A DNA stretch of 64,000 nucleotides. Origin: Acetanaerobacterium elongatum. GTDB lineage: Bacteria > Bacillota > Clostridia > Oscillospirales > Ruminococcaceae. The notes beneath the pieces were generated by a model, which saw nothing but the letters and a program-made list of their open reading frames with translations, did not search any database and was not told the origin of the DNA. Position numbers and translations under genes: made by a program. Position 1 is the first letter of the stretch. Each line of letters opens with the position of its first letter. Below are positions 1-54,945 of this stretch, piece after piece. The stretch covers positions 1 through 64,000 of the forward strand of contig NZ_FNID01000017.1 in the NCBI RefSeq assembly GCF_900103835.1. The letters are read 5' to 3'.

Positions 1-2
1 TG

Positions 3-245
3 TTTGAACAAACGGCACTGAAACTGGGTATCAGACATAAACTTATTCGTCCTTATACACCCCGACACAACGGCAAGGTAGAACGTAGCCACCGTGAAGA
101 CCAAAAGCGTTTCTATGACATACACCACTTTTATTCACTCGCCGATTTTGATGTGCAGCTAGCTGCACATCAAAATCGTTCCAATAACATACCGATGCGC
201 CCACTTCGCTGGCTTTCGCCACTTGAAAAGCTTGCTCTTTCCTAA
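3..245 (+). CDS. IS481-like DDE transposase, C-terminal part (5' end outside window)
   Basis: An open frame enters from the left edge and runs to a TAA at 243-245, giving 80 residues. The residues RPYTPRHNGKVER contain the glutamate of the DDE triad in the usual setting of IS481/IS3-type integrase cores. The tail, with NNIPMRPL and WLSPLEKL, matches the usual end of these transposases. The catalytic aspartates would lie upstream and cannot be seen, so activity cannot be judged. A perfect 36-bp palindrome (143-178) lies inside the coding sequence without breaking the family pattern. Transcription runs towards the 3' end of recN, which is on the opposite strand. Confidence 0.8.
   Translation, partial: FEQTALKLGIRHKLIRPYTPRHNGKVERSHREDQKRFYDIHHFYSLADFDVQLAAHQNRSNNIPMRPLRWLSPLEKLALS
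143..178. repeat. Perfect 36-bp palindrome within the transposase gene
   Basis: The left arm CGATTTTGATGTGCAGCT is followed directly by its exact reverse complement, with the centre between 160 and 161 and no spacer. The flanking bases (142 and 179) do not pair. The palindrome lies in the coding frame and encodes the stretch DFDVQLAAHQNR, which still fits the transposase family pattern. It could fold as a cruciform or as an mRNA hairpin. No function is known to me. Confidence 0.9.
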
Positions 246-277
246 CACTGTCCAAGATGTTTGACAAACCTACAAAT

Positions 278-1948
278 TTAATTTCCTGCAAGCTTAAGCA
301 TTTCATCAGCATTGGATAGCATCAGTTCAGTAATGGCATCGCCACCCATGATGCGCGCAAGCTCTTGCATGCGCTGTTCGCGGCTAAGAGTATGCACCTC
401 AGTATAGGTTTTCCCTTCCCGCACCTTTTTTTCAATCAACATATGATGGTCACCGAGCGCTGCAATCTGAGCAAGATGGGTTACACAGATTACCTGCCGT
501 CCCCTTGCAATCTCACGCAGCTTCAAGCCAATCTTCTGTGCGGCACGACCACTCACACCGGTATCAATCTCATCAAAAATCATGGTATCCACGTCGTCCT
601 TACCTACCAAAACGGTTTTAATGGCAAGCATGATGCGGGAAAGCTCACCGCCGGAAGCAATCTTTGAAAGCGGCTTTGGTGGCTCTCCGGGATTTGTTGA
701 GATTAAGAATTCAATATTGTCTATCCCAGAGGGCCGCATATCGCCCTGCTTATTAGAAATTACCAGCTGTACGCTGGGCATATCCAAAAACTCCAGCTCC
801 AGCTTAACACGACGTGCGAATTCTGTAGCAAACTCATTTCGCTTGGCAGAAAGCAGCATTGCCGCCTCTCGGGTTTTCTCGTAAACCTCAGCACGTTGGA
901 TTGTCAGCTTATTGATCAGTTCATCTGAAAGCTCAATCTCTTCCAGCTCCTGCTTGGCTTTCTCCAGATATTGCAGAACTTCTTCAACGCTGCTGCCATA
1001 CTTCTTTTTAAGCTTATAAATCGTATCTAATCGGTACTCAATTTGGTCAATCAGGCGCGGGTCAAATTCAAAATCATCAAGTATTTCGTGTATATCGTTT
1101 GAAATCTCTTCAAGCTCCAGAGTGATGGAGCCAATACGCTCCGACATTTCGGCAACGTCCTCTAAAAAAGCAGAAAGCTCGTTAAGCGCTTGTGAAGCAT
1201 TGGCAACTAAGCTACAGCCCCCCGCTGTCTCCTCATTGCCCGAAAGATTATCATAGGCTGTATTAAGCCCATCCAGTATCCGTGCAGCATTCTTAATCCG
1301 CTTGCGCTTTGCCAACAGCTCATCCTCTTCATCGGGCTGCAGGCCTGCCTCTTCTATCTCGCTGATTTGGAATTTTAGCAAATCTACCCTGCGTGCCTTC
1401 TCCGCTTCATCGGTAGATATCTTACTGAGGCGGTTTTCAATAGTTCTCAGCTGCTCATACTGGCTTGCATAACAGCTACAATCTGCGGAGAGATTACCGA
1501 AGCTGTCGATGAACTTCATATGCTTATCGGCATCCAGCAGCGCTTGATTATCATGCTGGCCATGAATGTTGATAAGGTATGTACCCAATTCACGTAACAG
1601 TGCCACAGTAGCCGGCCGCCCGCCGATACGACAGTTCGCTCTGCCGTCTGCCGTAAGCTCTCGGGAGATTAGAACCGTGTTGCCCTCATCCGGCTCATAG
1701 CCAAGCTCTTGAAGCTTAAAAACGGCATCCTCAGAAATATCGGTAAATAGAGCGGTAACGCTGGCCTTATTAGCACCGGTACGTATCAAATCCTTCGAGG
1801 TTCGTTCGCCCAGAACCGCGTTGATGGAATCAATAAGTATCGACTTGCCGGCACCGGTCTCACCGGTAAAGATATTAAAACCCTGTCCCAAAACAATAGA
1901 GGTTTGTTCAATCACCGCAATATTATCGATATAGAGTTCAGAAAGCAT
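278..1948 (-). CDS. recN: DNA repair protein RecN
   Basis: RecN is an SMC-like ATPase that acts early in double-strand break repair. The 556-residue product has the usual full length. Walker A is GETGAGKS at residues 29-36, a central coiled coil spans roughly residues 150-380, and the C-terminal half carries the ABC signature region (LSKIASGGELSRIMLAIK) and Walker B (MIFDEIDTGVSG). It follows argR, an arrangement seen throughout the Firmicutes, and probably ends a long operon running from nusB. The stop codon is only 3 bp from the inferred tip of an insertion sequence, so the last codons or the native terminator may have been affected. The end (EMLKLAGN) still looks normal. Confidence 0.97.
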   Translation of the reverse strand: MLSELYIDNIAVIEQTSIVLGQGFNIFTGETGAGKSILIDSINAVLGERTSKDLIRTGANKASVTALFTDISEDAVFKLQELGYEPDEGNTVLISRELTADGRANCRIGGRPATVALLRELGTYLINIHGQHDNQALLDADKHMKFIDSFGNLSADCSCYASQYEQLRTIENRLSKISTDEAEKARRVDLLKFQISEIEEAGLQPDEEDELLAKRKRIKNAARILDGLNTAYDNLSGNEETAGGCSLVANASQALNELSAFLEDVAEMSERIGSITLELEEISNDIHEILDDFEFDPRLIDQIEYRLDTIYKLKKKYGSSVEEVLQYLEKAKQELEEIELSDELINKLTIQRAEVYEKTREAAMLLSAKRNEFATEFARRVKLELEFLDMPSVQLVISNKQGDMRPSGIDNIEFLISTNPGEPPKPLSKIASGGELSRIMLAIKTVLVGKDDVDTMIFDEIDTGVSGRAAQKIGLKLREIARGRQVICVTHLAQIAALGDHHMLIEKKVREGKTYTEVHTLSREQRMQELARIMGGDAITELMLSNADEMLKLAGN

Positions 1949-1988
1949 ATCAAATCACCTGCCATATTTATGACATAACAGCATTTAC

Positions 1989-2450
1989 CTAATCCATCAG
2001 CTTCATCAAATCATGCATCAGCATCATGGAGGTTTCTTCCGAACGGGTTAAGATGAAAATAGTATCGTCGCCCGCCAAAGTTCCGACTACACCCTTCCAG
2101 TTGAGTGAGTCAAATGCTGCACAGGCTGCATTGGCCATACCGGTATAGCATTTCACGCATACAATATTCCCTGAGTAATCTATATGCACTGCCGATTTCA
2201 CAAAAAGGGTATGAAAGTTGTAGTTGATTTCAACATCCTTCTCGCGCAGGTTGGAGGAGTATTTGTAGTTGCCATCCTCCCCTAGGGTTTTAATCAACTT
2301 GAGCTCTTTAATATCGCGGGAAACCGTCGCCTGAGTGACATTGTAACCGCTTTCACGCAGACGACTGAGCAGCTCCTCCTGCGTATTGATACTGTTCTCG
2401 GAGATGAGCTCCAGTATCTTGGTATGCCGTTTTGTTTTCATCATAACCAT
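1989..2450 (-). CDS. argR: Arginine repressor ArgR
   Basis: ArgR is the arginine-responsive hexameric repressor/activator of arginine metabolism genes. The N-terminal winged helix runs over the first 65 residues or so, with the family motif TQATVSRDIKELKL as recognition helix. The C-terminal arginine-binding and trimerisation domain includes GTLAGDDTIFIL. The frame can be extended to a TTG at 2474, but the ATG at 2450 follows a GGCGG at 5 bases and gives about 153 residues, the normal size; ATGs at 2444 and 2441 are also possible. It sits between nadK and recN, as in Bacillus and Clostridium. An effect on recN expression is not shown by the sequence. Confidence 0.95.
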   Translation of the reverse strand: MVMMKTKRHTKILELISENSINTQEELLSRLRESGYNVTQATVSRDIKELKLIKTLGEDGNYKYSSNLREKDVEINYNFHTLFVKSAVHIDYSGNIVCVKCYTGMANAACAAFDSLNWKGVVGTLAGDDTIFILTRSEETSMMLMHDLMKLMD

Positions 2451-2556
2451 CCGTTCCGCCGCTGTGCAGAGCAAGAAGTGAAGCGCATGGGTTTACCTTA
2501 CCATGCACAGCAGACAATGGTAAGGGTAAAAAATACAATGTAAGACACCTTATAGG

Positions 2557-3420
2557 TTAACCACGTAACAATACCTTTTGGTTAAGCACTTCAAAGAAAT
2601 CTTTATATTCAAGGTTTAATAATTTAACATAGACTGATGATTTTTTTATTATTATAGTGTCTTCGATATCTATCTTTATGGCCTCTTCGCCGTCGACAGT
2701 CAGGTAGACTTCACACCCGTCTCTCTCTTTACCGCTCGTAACGGAAATAACATCCTCGGGTGAGAAGATAATCGTTCTTGAAACCAAAGAATGCGCACAG
2801 ATAGGTGTCATCGTAATACATTCAACATACGGCGATATCACCGGCCCTCCCGCCGCCATATTATAAGCCGTGGAACCGGTGGGGGTAGAAAGAATAATAC
2901 CATCAGCACGGTAGCTACTCACAGCTTTATCATTACATGCTACATTAAGGTCAATAATCTGTGCCTTAATGCCCTTAGAGATAACAGCATCATTTAAAGC
3001 ATAATAGCTCTGCTCAATATTGCCGGATTGTTTGATAATCTCCAGCATCATGCGATTTTCGGTGTTGTAGTCTCCGTTCGTAACCCGGTTTAATACCGAA
3101 AGGTTATTGGGCTCAATAAACGACATAAAGCCAAGCCTGCCTACATTAACCCCTACTACAGGCTTACCATAAAAGGCTGCTTTTTTGGCCGCATGCAACA
3201 GAGTGCCGTCACCGCCGATTGTCACGACAAAATTGCAGCCCCGCATTATAGAATCAAACGAACCAAACAGCGCGCCGATACGCGTAAAGTGTTTTTGCTT
3301 GTCATCCTCAAGGCAGGGGATAACCCCGATCTTGAGTAGTTCTCTGCAGACCTCGGTTGTACAATTCAGGCTGTTTGGCTTATCCAGATTAGGGATTAAA
3401 AACGCCTTTAATTCACTCAT
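2557..3420 (-). CDS. nadK: NAD kinase
   Basis: The enzyme phosphorylates NAD+ at the 2' hydroxyl of the adenosine ribose to make NADP+. The 287-residue protein has the diagnostic GGDGT motif (TIGGDGTLLHAAK, about residue 70) and the downstream substrate-binding block (ADGIILSTPTGSTAYNMAAGGP). The ATG at 3420 is the first in-frame start. It lies between tlyA and argR on the same strand, a conserved order (dxs-tlyA-nadK-argR-recN) in Gram-positive bacteria, so co-transcription is likely. Confidence 0.96.
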   Translation of the reverse strand: MSELKAFLIPNLDKPNSLNCTTEVCRELLKIGVIPCLEDDKQKHFTRIGALFGSFDSIMRGCNFVVTIGGDGTLLHAAKKAAFYGKPVVGVNVGRLGFMSFIEPNNLSVLNRVTNGDYNTENRMMLEIIKQSGNIEQSYYALNDAVISKGIKAQIIDLNVACNDKAVSSYRADGIILSTPTGSTAYNMAAGGPVISPYVECITMTPICAHSLVSRTIIFSPEDVISVTSGKERDGCEVYLTVDGEEAIKIDIEDTIIIKKSSVYVKLLNLEYKDFFEVLNQKVLLRG

Positions 3421-3479
3421 ATCCGGTTTAATCCCTCACTAATGGCATGCTTTACTAAACACCTACGACGCATGTAATG

Positions 3480-4292
3480 CTATGCCTTAAAATTCTCATG
3501 AGACGCTTGTACCAAAGCCTCTAAATCAATTGTTGCAGGCGCAAGACACTCAGCGGATTTTTTCAGATAGTACAGGTACTCTATATTCCCCTCTGGCCCT
3601 TTTACGGGAGAATAGTCAGCGCCTAATAAGGTAAAACCTATCTCCGGCAAGGTGTTCGCAATTTTTTGCAGCACCTCTAAATGAATCTCCGGCTCCCGTA
3701 CAACACCCTTTTTGCCCACCTTGCCTTTTCCCGCTTCAAATTGCGGTTTCACAAGACAGACCACCTCACCGTTATTCTTTAAAAGTGAAAAAGCCACCGG
3801 CAACACCAGCGTTAGGGAGATAAAAGATACATCTATACTTGCAAAATCCAACGGTTCACCAACCTGTTCCCGTGTTACATAACGAATGTTGGTACGTTCA
3901 AGGTTGATTACACGTTCATCCGTGCGCAGTTTCCAAGCCAACTGACCGTAACCAACATCAACAGCATACACCTTTTTTGCACCGTTTTGCAACATACAAT
4001 CGGTAAAGCCGCCGGTTGAGGCGCCAATATCCATACATATACAATCATTCAATGAGAGCTGAAAGGTTGTCATTGCTTTTTCGAGCTTTAGGCCGCCACG
4101 GCTGACATATTTTATATCGGAACCGTTTACACGGATATCTGCTCCTTCTTTTATCTCTTCACCGGGCTTATCGACCTTTTGTCCATTTACGAATACCACT
4201 CCGGACATAATCAGCGCCTTGGCGCGTTCCCGGCTTTGCGCAAGCCCCTGTTCAACCAGTGCAGCGTCCAAACGCAATCTATTCTCACTCAC
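3480..4292 (-). CDS. tlyA: TlyA family rRNA (cytidine-2'-O)-methyltransferase
   Basis: TlyA enzymes 2'-O-methylate cytidines in 16S and/or 23S rRNA; the methylation affects capreomycin sensitivity in mycobacteria. The first 60 residues or so form an S4 RNA-binding domain (LDAALVEQGLAQSRERAKALI). After it comes a FtsJ-like Rossmann methyltransferase domain with the SAM-binding motif DIGASTGGFTDCML and a VKPQFEAG block. It starts at a GTG that overlaps the dxs stop codon in a 4-base GTGA, with GGAGAG 8 bases upstream, so it is probably translationally coupled to dxs. The 270-residue length is standard. The rRNA target cannot be told from sequence. Confidence 0.93.
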   Translation of the reverse strand: MSENRLRLDAALVEQGLAQSRERAKALIMSGVVFVNGQKVDKPGEEIKEGADIRVNGSDIKYVSRGGLKLEKAMTTFQLSLNDCICMDIGASTGGFTDCMLQNGAKKVYAVDVGYGQLAWKLRTDERVINLERTNIRYVTREQVGEPLDFASIDVSFISLTLVLPVAFSLLKNNGEVVCLVKPQFEAGKGKVGKKGVVREPEIHLEVLQKIANTLPEIGFTLLGADYSPVKGPEGNIEYLYYLKKSAECLAPATIDLEALVQASHENFKA

Positions 4293-54908: not shown

Positions 54909-54945
54909 AAAATGTGGCAGGAGCTTTCGCTCCTGCCACATTTTT
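54909..54945. terminator. Bidirectional terminator between metK and the FlgN-like gene
   Basis: Arms of 16 bases (AAAATGTGGCAGGAGC and its complement) flank a TTTC loop, with A residues on one side and T residues on the other. It ends metK transcripts on the plus strand and can end the fliD-fliS-FlgN transcript on the minus strand, whose last gene stops at 54944. Confidence 0.9.

Follow-up and report, generated by a model that had tools for sequence, protein, structure and literature searches.

Comparison with related sequences indicates that a palindrome carried by a mobile element of gut bacteria is no accident: its two arms change together. The element is an insertion sequence (IS) of Acetanaerobacterium elongatum, and the palindrome lies within its transposase gene, at the start of the stretch of 64,000 nucleotides analysed here, which we call the window. 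In this natural case the self-complementarity of DNA, and not the needs of the protein, has for a long evolutionary time dictated which amino acids stand at two separate positions of an enzyme. It makes it possible to test in one short sequence whether covarying stems prove a selected structure or can persist through template switching with no other cause. Should the palindrome serve its element, a common IS family would have a cis-acting part not described before; should it serve nothing, all claims of RNA or DNA structure that are based on covariation would call for caution.

The palindrome and the element that carries it

The following features were located in the window:

1..274, plus strand: right-hand part of the IS in the contig, from comparison of copies and ends
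3..245, plus strand: 3' part of an IS481-like transposase gene, 80 aa, open at the window start
143..178: perfect 36-bp palindrome (site A), centred between 160 and 161, within the Leu codon of the QLA motif
143..160, plus strand: left arm of site A, from the third base of A47 to the second base of L53 (numbering of the 80-aa fragment)
161..178, plus strand: right arm of site A, from the third base of L53 to the second base of R59 (same numbering)
251..274, minus strand: terminal inverted repeat of the right end, TGTAGGTTTGTCAAACATCTTGGA, with 274 as the last base of the IS

Positions 143-178 (CGATTTTGATGTGCAGCT/AGCTGCACATCAAAATCG) consist of two 18-nt arms, 100% complementary and separated by 0 nt, and a direct check found the segment identical to its own reverse complement. 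The spacer-free perfect palindrome of the initial annotation is therefore real, the residues encoded there are those it gave (DFDVQLAAHQNR), and the structure is indeed superimposed on an IS481-type transposase gene: the 80-aa frame 3-245, which is open at its start, since the first base of the contig (C24 of 73) already lies within the IS, matches Pfam rve_3 (3.7e-10) with the last 80 aa that the window contains. By simple arithmetic, about 64000 x 4^-18 = 1e-6 such 36-mers would be expected in 64 kb of random sequence. Regarding an intrinsic terminator, the sequence has no T run after the stem. With loops of up to 4 nt allowed, this is the strongest stem of the window (score 18), followed by a perfect 16-bp stem with a 4-nt loop at 54909-54944, outside the long ORFs counted, which is possibly a terminator; the best other stem within the window ORFs of at least 150 aa (56,463 nt) scores 11.

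The end of the IS was defined by seven copies in the same genome, which agree up to CCTACA and differ in their flanks beyond it. All seven right ends carry the identical palindrome (7/7), each with a different flank, and all lie at contig ends. The own-genome search also found seven pieces of the left part of the IS. Other own-genome matches were those of the palindrome to its reverse strand and one 25-nt match outside the IS, and no short derivatives made of the right end alone occurred among the matches listed. The recN stop codon (278-280, other strand) begins three bases past the IS end at 274; along 278-4292 the IS lies just after recN, which is followed by argR, an NAD kinase gene and tlyA, all on the minus strand.

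Terminal inverted repeats of the IS481 family begin with TGT. Ends resembling TGTAG...ACATMTTGGA were found in five relatives (L057, L069, L080, L090 and L135), and in these both-end elements the centre of the palindrome lies 110-131 bp from the right end; the other relatives scanned gave no pair of ends that passed, or a spurious one inside the gene. The right repeat at 251-274 is an imperfect match to the left ends of relatives, and the few full elements examined, whose ends may be off by some bases, showed no clear target-site duplication. Like the IS481 family, these elements have a single transposase frame, ends beginning with TGT and their best match among all models in NF033577 (transpos_IS481; E 3.6e-60 and 8e-60 for full-length relatives); unlike it, the same relatives score 203.9 and 202.8 bits, below the curated cut-off of 224. 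The accessible portions of the IS481-family listings make no mention of a conserved internal palindrome.

Paired changes in the relatives

A reading of the homologous 36 nt in 136 stretches, from own copies and from relatives and with some places covered repeatedly, gave two sorts, with either 12-18 or 1-11 complementary pairs of 18. Perfect or near-perfect palindromes made of different letters occur in many Clostridia, in dozens of genomes. Those with 18/18 pairs include L084 (CGACTATGGTGCACAGCT/AGCTGTGCACCATAGTCG), L088 (CGACTTTGGAGCCCAGCT/AGCTGGGCTCCAAAGTCG), L041 (TGATCTAAACGCGCAGCT/AGCTGCGCGTTTAGATCA), L080, L160, L169, L245 and L255, and wider searches added the centres CAATTAATTG and CAGTTAACTG and the arms GTTG/CAAC and GCCAGG/CCTGGC.

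Among 39 distinct segments, 13 of the 18 pairs have changed on both sides, and 67 cells are changed on both sides against 13.7 in shuffles. The covariation score is 0.312 versus 0.123 when shuffled, none of 500 shuffles scoring as high, and slid controls gave 0.03-0.12. Since the segments were picked with at least 11 pairs, the percentage paired is biased, and covariation less so; the decayed copies L250, L268 and L296 were excluded from the covariation alignment (42 members listed). Chance, which the initial annotation had allowed for, is thus ruled out by the expectation of about 1e-6 per window, by the covariation and by the palindromes of other letters at the same codons. Its fold-back assembly artefact is suggested at most by the location of all seven right ends at contig ends, as for repeats in short-read assemblies, and it is refuted by seven contigs of one genome, dozens of other assemblies and a 3.97-Mb contig with nine full copies of the palindromic element. 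We regard either of these two explanations as hardly conceivable.

On a quick tree of flanking DNA (72 copies, including four poorly paired) that places L041, L424 and L430 oddly, parsimony over pairs 2-14 counted 39 changes that were compensated and 28 that broke the pair on one side, besides 5 restorations and a single two-sided break. About four of the 39 are perhaps counted twice, since L041 stands apart from L239/L246 on that tree whereas the protein tree unites them (100/100; there as L041 and L169). The initial annotation had set silent breaks against a maintained palindrome; on the tree, joint changes of the arms number 39 versus 28 one-sided breaks. Pair 1 is free, the outer pairs are eroded in some lineages, and there is no sequence conservation outside a core fixed by coding. 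In one copy of the palindromic IS, L424 (G1102:C3:2268000-2271500), an IS110-family element (NF033542, 260 bits) is inserted shortly upstream of the palindrome.

The palindrome runs from a third to a second codon position, so that third positions pair with second ones and first with first; a compensated change therefore nearly always replaces an amino acid. Residues 50 and 56 occur together as D/H, G/H, G/L, V/Q, N/R and A/W, the last in two copies of one genome (L297 and L413). Protein need was rejected as the cause, given that these residues vary widely and yet with complementary codons. The frame is open through the palindrome in the 32 intact copies. In an AlphaFold model of a relative, residues 246-295, which hold those of the palindrome, have pLDDT under 50, and for this reason we draw no structural argument.

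On a tree of 86 transposases, built without the residues of the palindrome, 28 palindromic rows are spread over several branches and 47 rows without the palindrome group together in a single clade with support of 100/97; a few other rows without it (L121, L197) lie in or beside palindromic branches. A scan of 200 distinct frames, including members of the 47-row clade, found no other stem of score 11 in those members, so the palindrome is dispensable. The palindrome is probably an old feature with one main loss, in that clade. This history is inferred, since the root is a midpoint chosen for drawing, the palindrome label changes five times on the tree and supported branches force at least two changes. 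Stems at L034/L096, L053 and L106, in non-palindromic relatives, were discarded as lying outside the transposase open frame and absent from the frame scan.

Within 24 palindromic elements of about 1.1 kb no other strong stem was found, in a scan where the palindrome itself passed the threshold in 21 of the 24. A separate perfect 36-nt palindrome (AAAAAGTACGGAGAAAATATTTTCTCCGTACTTTTT) was observed at L251, in a mechanical ORF beside the IS481-like gene, and may be a terminator.

Pairing of DNA or of RNA

Silent codon choice points to the molecule in which the arms pair. In copies with at least 12 pairs, codon 56 is CAC in 56/56 cases where the partner base is G and CAT in 19/19 where it is A, with one CAT facing C; since copies of the same genome are not independent, these counts become 32, 5 and 1 over 45 distinct segments. 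Non-palindromic relatives have 40 CAC and 27 CAT at this codon. Codon 57 is CAA in 63/63 copies with at least 12 pairs, and silent G-U pairs are absent at pair 10 (0/56 copies) and pair 13 (0/63). The 28 one-sided breaks comprise 5 G-U, 13 A-C and 10 others, types that by our reasoning fit codon opportunity. The silent codon thus follows its partner base, without a preference for G-U over A-C, which argues from the sequences that pairing is upheld at the DNA level and not as a messenger-RNA fold.

The initial annotation had proposed that an mRNA hairpin dampens translation. More broadly, a selected hairpin of the mRNA or of an antisense RNA could slow translation, be cut by an RNase III-type enzyme or otherwise limit the transposase, and it would agree with a very stable predicted fold (16 bp, 4-nt loop, -24.7 kcal/mol; z -7.3 sense, z -7.6 antisense) and with a position late in the gene. 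However, a sense RNA stem would survive the G-U pairs arising from CAT or CAG, which are not seen at pairs 10 and 13, and G-U makes up 5 of the 28 breaks versus 13 for A-C; an mRNA fold is therefore disfavoured. Among the features of structured RNA, covariation is present and tolerance of G-U on the transcribed strand is absent. A search of Rfam with eight sources at the gathering threshold returned nothing but a tRNA. On balance, we consider a role as RNA improbable.

The initial annotation had also suggested a binding site for a dimer. An operator for a dimeric protein, whether the transposase or a host regulator, would be two-fold symmetric, as is this segment of about 36 bp, present once per element scanned. 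Against it, the arms differ widely between lineages, as between the window and L041, with no conservation beyond the needs of the QLA codons, which makes an operator very improbable.

Proposed template switching and selection, and a second site

Our preferred reading, on which we are almost evenly divided, sees in the palindrome a long-standing DNA feature of one IS481-like lineage that matters by its structure alone, owed to template switching together with selection in active copies. The palindrome would be overprinted on the end of the transposase gene, its letters free and its self-complementarity kept. New paired changes would arise largely by template switching at replication: folding back on itself or jumping, the growing strand would take one arm as the template for the other, and hence the rewriting of both arms in blocks would also be explained. 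In active elements, selection may in addition keep a strand able to form a hairpin or a cruciform, the latter already among the suggestions of the initial annotation, that aids the element's own cycle; our guess is that it acts while the transposing element is single-stranded or being replicated, and not in translation. Template switching can supply the paired changes and is a good source of them, selection in active copies is suggested rather than proved, and a function is what we infer.

The main argument for selection comes from 86 copies classed as 32 intact, 12 interrupted and 42 at contig edges, the latter unclassable. Silently repairable mismatches at pairs 2-12 occur in 7/12 interrupted versus 2/32 intact copies (Fisher p 0.0006; 7/12 versus 2/23 among distinct segments, p 0.003), and mismatches of any kind in 7/12 versus 4/32 (p 0.004; 7/12 versus 4/23 distinct, p 0.022), in groups that are small and partly related (L296 with L268, L298 with L260). 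Copies with silent differences that break the palindrome, which the initial annotation had counted against it, thus exist, but they are relatively commoner among interrupted copies. This contrast favours selection in active elements, or a correction tied to activity. Against it, the intact copy L218 has three mismatches and the 47-row clade does without the palindrome. Of the 42 edge copies, 18 are mismatched, 11 of these from the genome G1388.

Homogenisation by template switching alone is a doubtful though serious alternative, in which a near-palindrome at CAGCTNGCTG, encoding QLA, corrects itself with no function and the protein tolerates the result. It agrees with the free pair 1, the outer pairs eroded in some lineages and the lack of conservation outside the coding-fixed core, and its best case is L245, an interrupted copy whose frame contains two stops and whose QTDNG motif has Asn for Asp, at what we take to be a catalytic residue. 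L245 is 93.3% identical over 1004 nt to the intact L080 of the same genome, and its only two changes within the 36 nt make one compensated pair, which counts against selection, because selection on the decayed copy itself would not yield it. Changes on its branch divide 7:7:11 over codon positions, a rough split because the outgroup is poorly aligned and only 64% identical in register. The decayed L250 has a stop at codon 57 whose paired base has changed too, among several unpaired changes, in an ungapped reading of an alignment made ambiguous by a deletion nearby.

From the published side, the available parts of the sources report that template switching creates and keeps hairpins (PMC8794818) and that arms are homogenised in yeast genes (PMC8604942), and they raise repeat conversion or template switching for the coding palindromes of hairworms (PMC6649704). 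Homogenisation alone nevertheless predicts interrupted copies as well paired as intact ones, and this is not what was observed. Long palindromes are also rare in the flanking ORFs of the same loci, where five stems reach a score of at least 12 in 304,665 nt. Two draft genomes, G1388 and G1209, hold high-copy expansions of the palindromic element, with 31 and 13 right ends. In G1388 a common T-T mismatch stands uncorrected in 27/31 right ends, two have one more mismatch and two have none, which fits neither strict selection nor rapid correction in that genome; in G1209 the core is matched in 13/13. The local correction event proposed in the initial annotation is supported as part of the answer.

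Reportedly, van Noort in 2003 dealt with quasipalindrome correction, or template-switch mutation. As far as the accessible text of the sources goes, this process is described in bacteria and yeast (PMC7202029, PMC8604942), and like the combination of template switching and selection that we prefer, it perfects imperfect palindromes by copying arm to arm, with amino-acid changes of several bases. Those events are mutations of individual genes, whereas here mobile elements of deep divergence share a palindrome at one site. The compensated change of the decayed L245 is as expected of such a process, yet the core is mismatched in 7/12 interrupted copies.

The nearest published precedent found is in the mitochondrial genes of Nematomorpha, where, in the portion of the paper available, coding palindromes are described for which repeat conversion and template switching are considered as origins (PMC6649704). 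In both cases perfect inverted repeats lie in protein-coding genes, both arms code for conserved protein and they are kept matched. Ours is a bacterial IS with 36 bp at one gene site common to many Clostridia relatives, whereas the hairworm repeats reach 284 bp and are scattered, gained and lost; here, moreover, intact copies are better paired than interrupted ones. No published report of this IS481-like palindrome was found in the open-licence literature, mostly titles and abstract openings.

Subterminal hairpins of the IS200/IS605 elements lie at the element ends and are read by an HUH transposase. They too are structure-bearing DNA inside an IS, whereas this palindrome lies inside the gene of a DDE-type element.

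A second site was found in a related IS481-like subfamily. Site B lies 149 nt upstream of site A, at LFEA[RSH]L, and reaches 18/18 pairs (36 bp) in L180 (CCCACACTGTTTGAGGCG/CGCCTCAAACAGTGTGGG), 17 in L198 and L039, 16 in L199, 12 in L256, L177 and L174, and 11 in L210. Its paired changes include CTG/CAG, TTG/CAA and CTC/GAG, as well as TTTGAG/CTCAAA and TTCGAG/CTCGAA; a wider search for this subfamily found no further palindrome of its kind. The existence of this second site speaks for our preferred reading. A bolder proposal, which we think unlikely, would be that IS481-like elements of Clostridia need a movable 36-bp palindrome, at site A or B, whose letters do not matter, and that its hairpin or cruciform in replication or transposition forces the paired amino-acid changes.

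Contigs of some genomes start near the palindrome, at a distance from the IS end that is constant per genome; this would be expected from k-mer overlap, and breakage at the palindrome itself was rejected as the cause. In-frame stems of score 11 or more in 230 distinct copies comprise 52 at site A, 7 at site B and one each at offsets -265 and -380, the last two being single in-gene palindromes of 17 bp with one mismatch (L131) and of 14 bp (L172).
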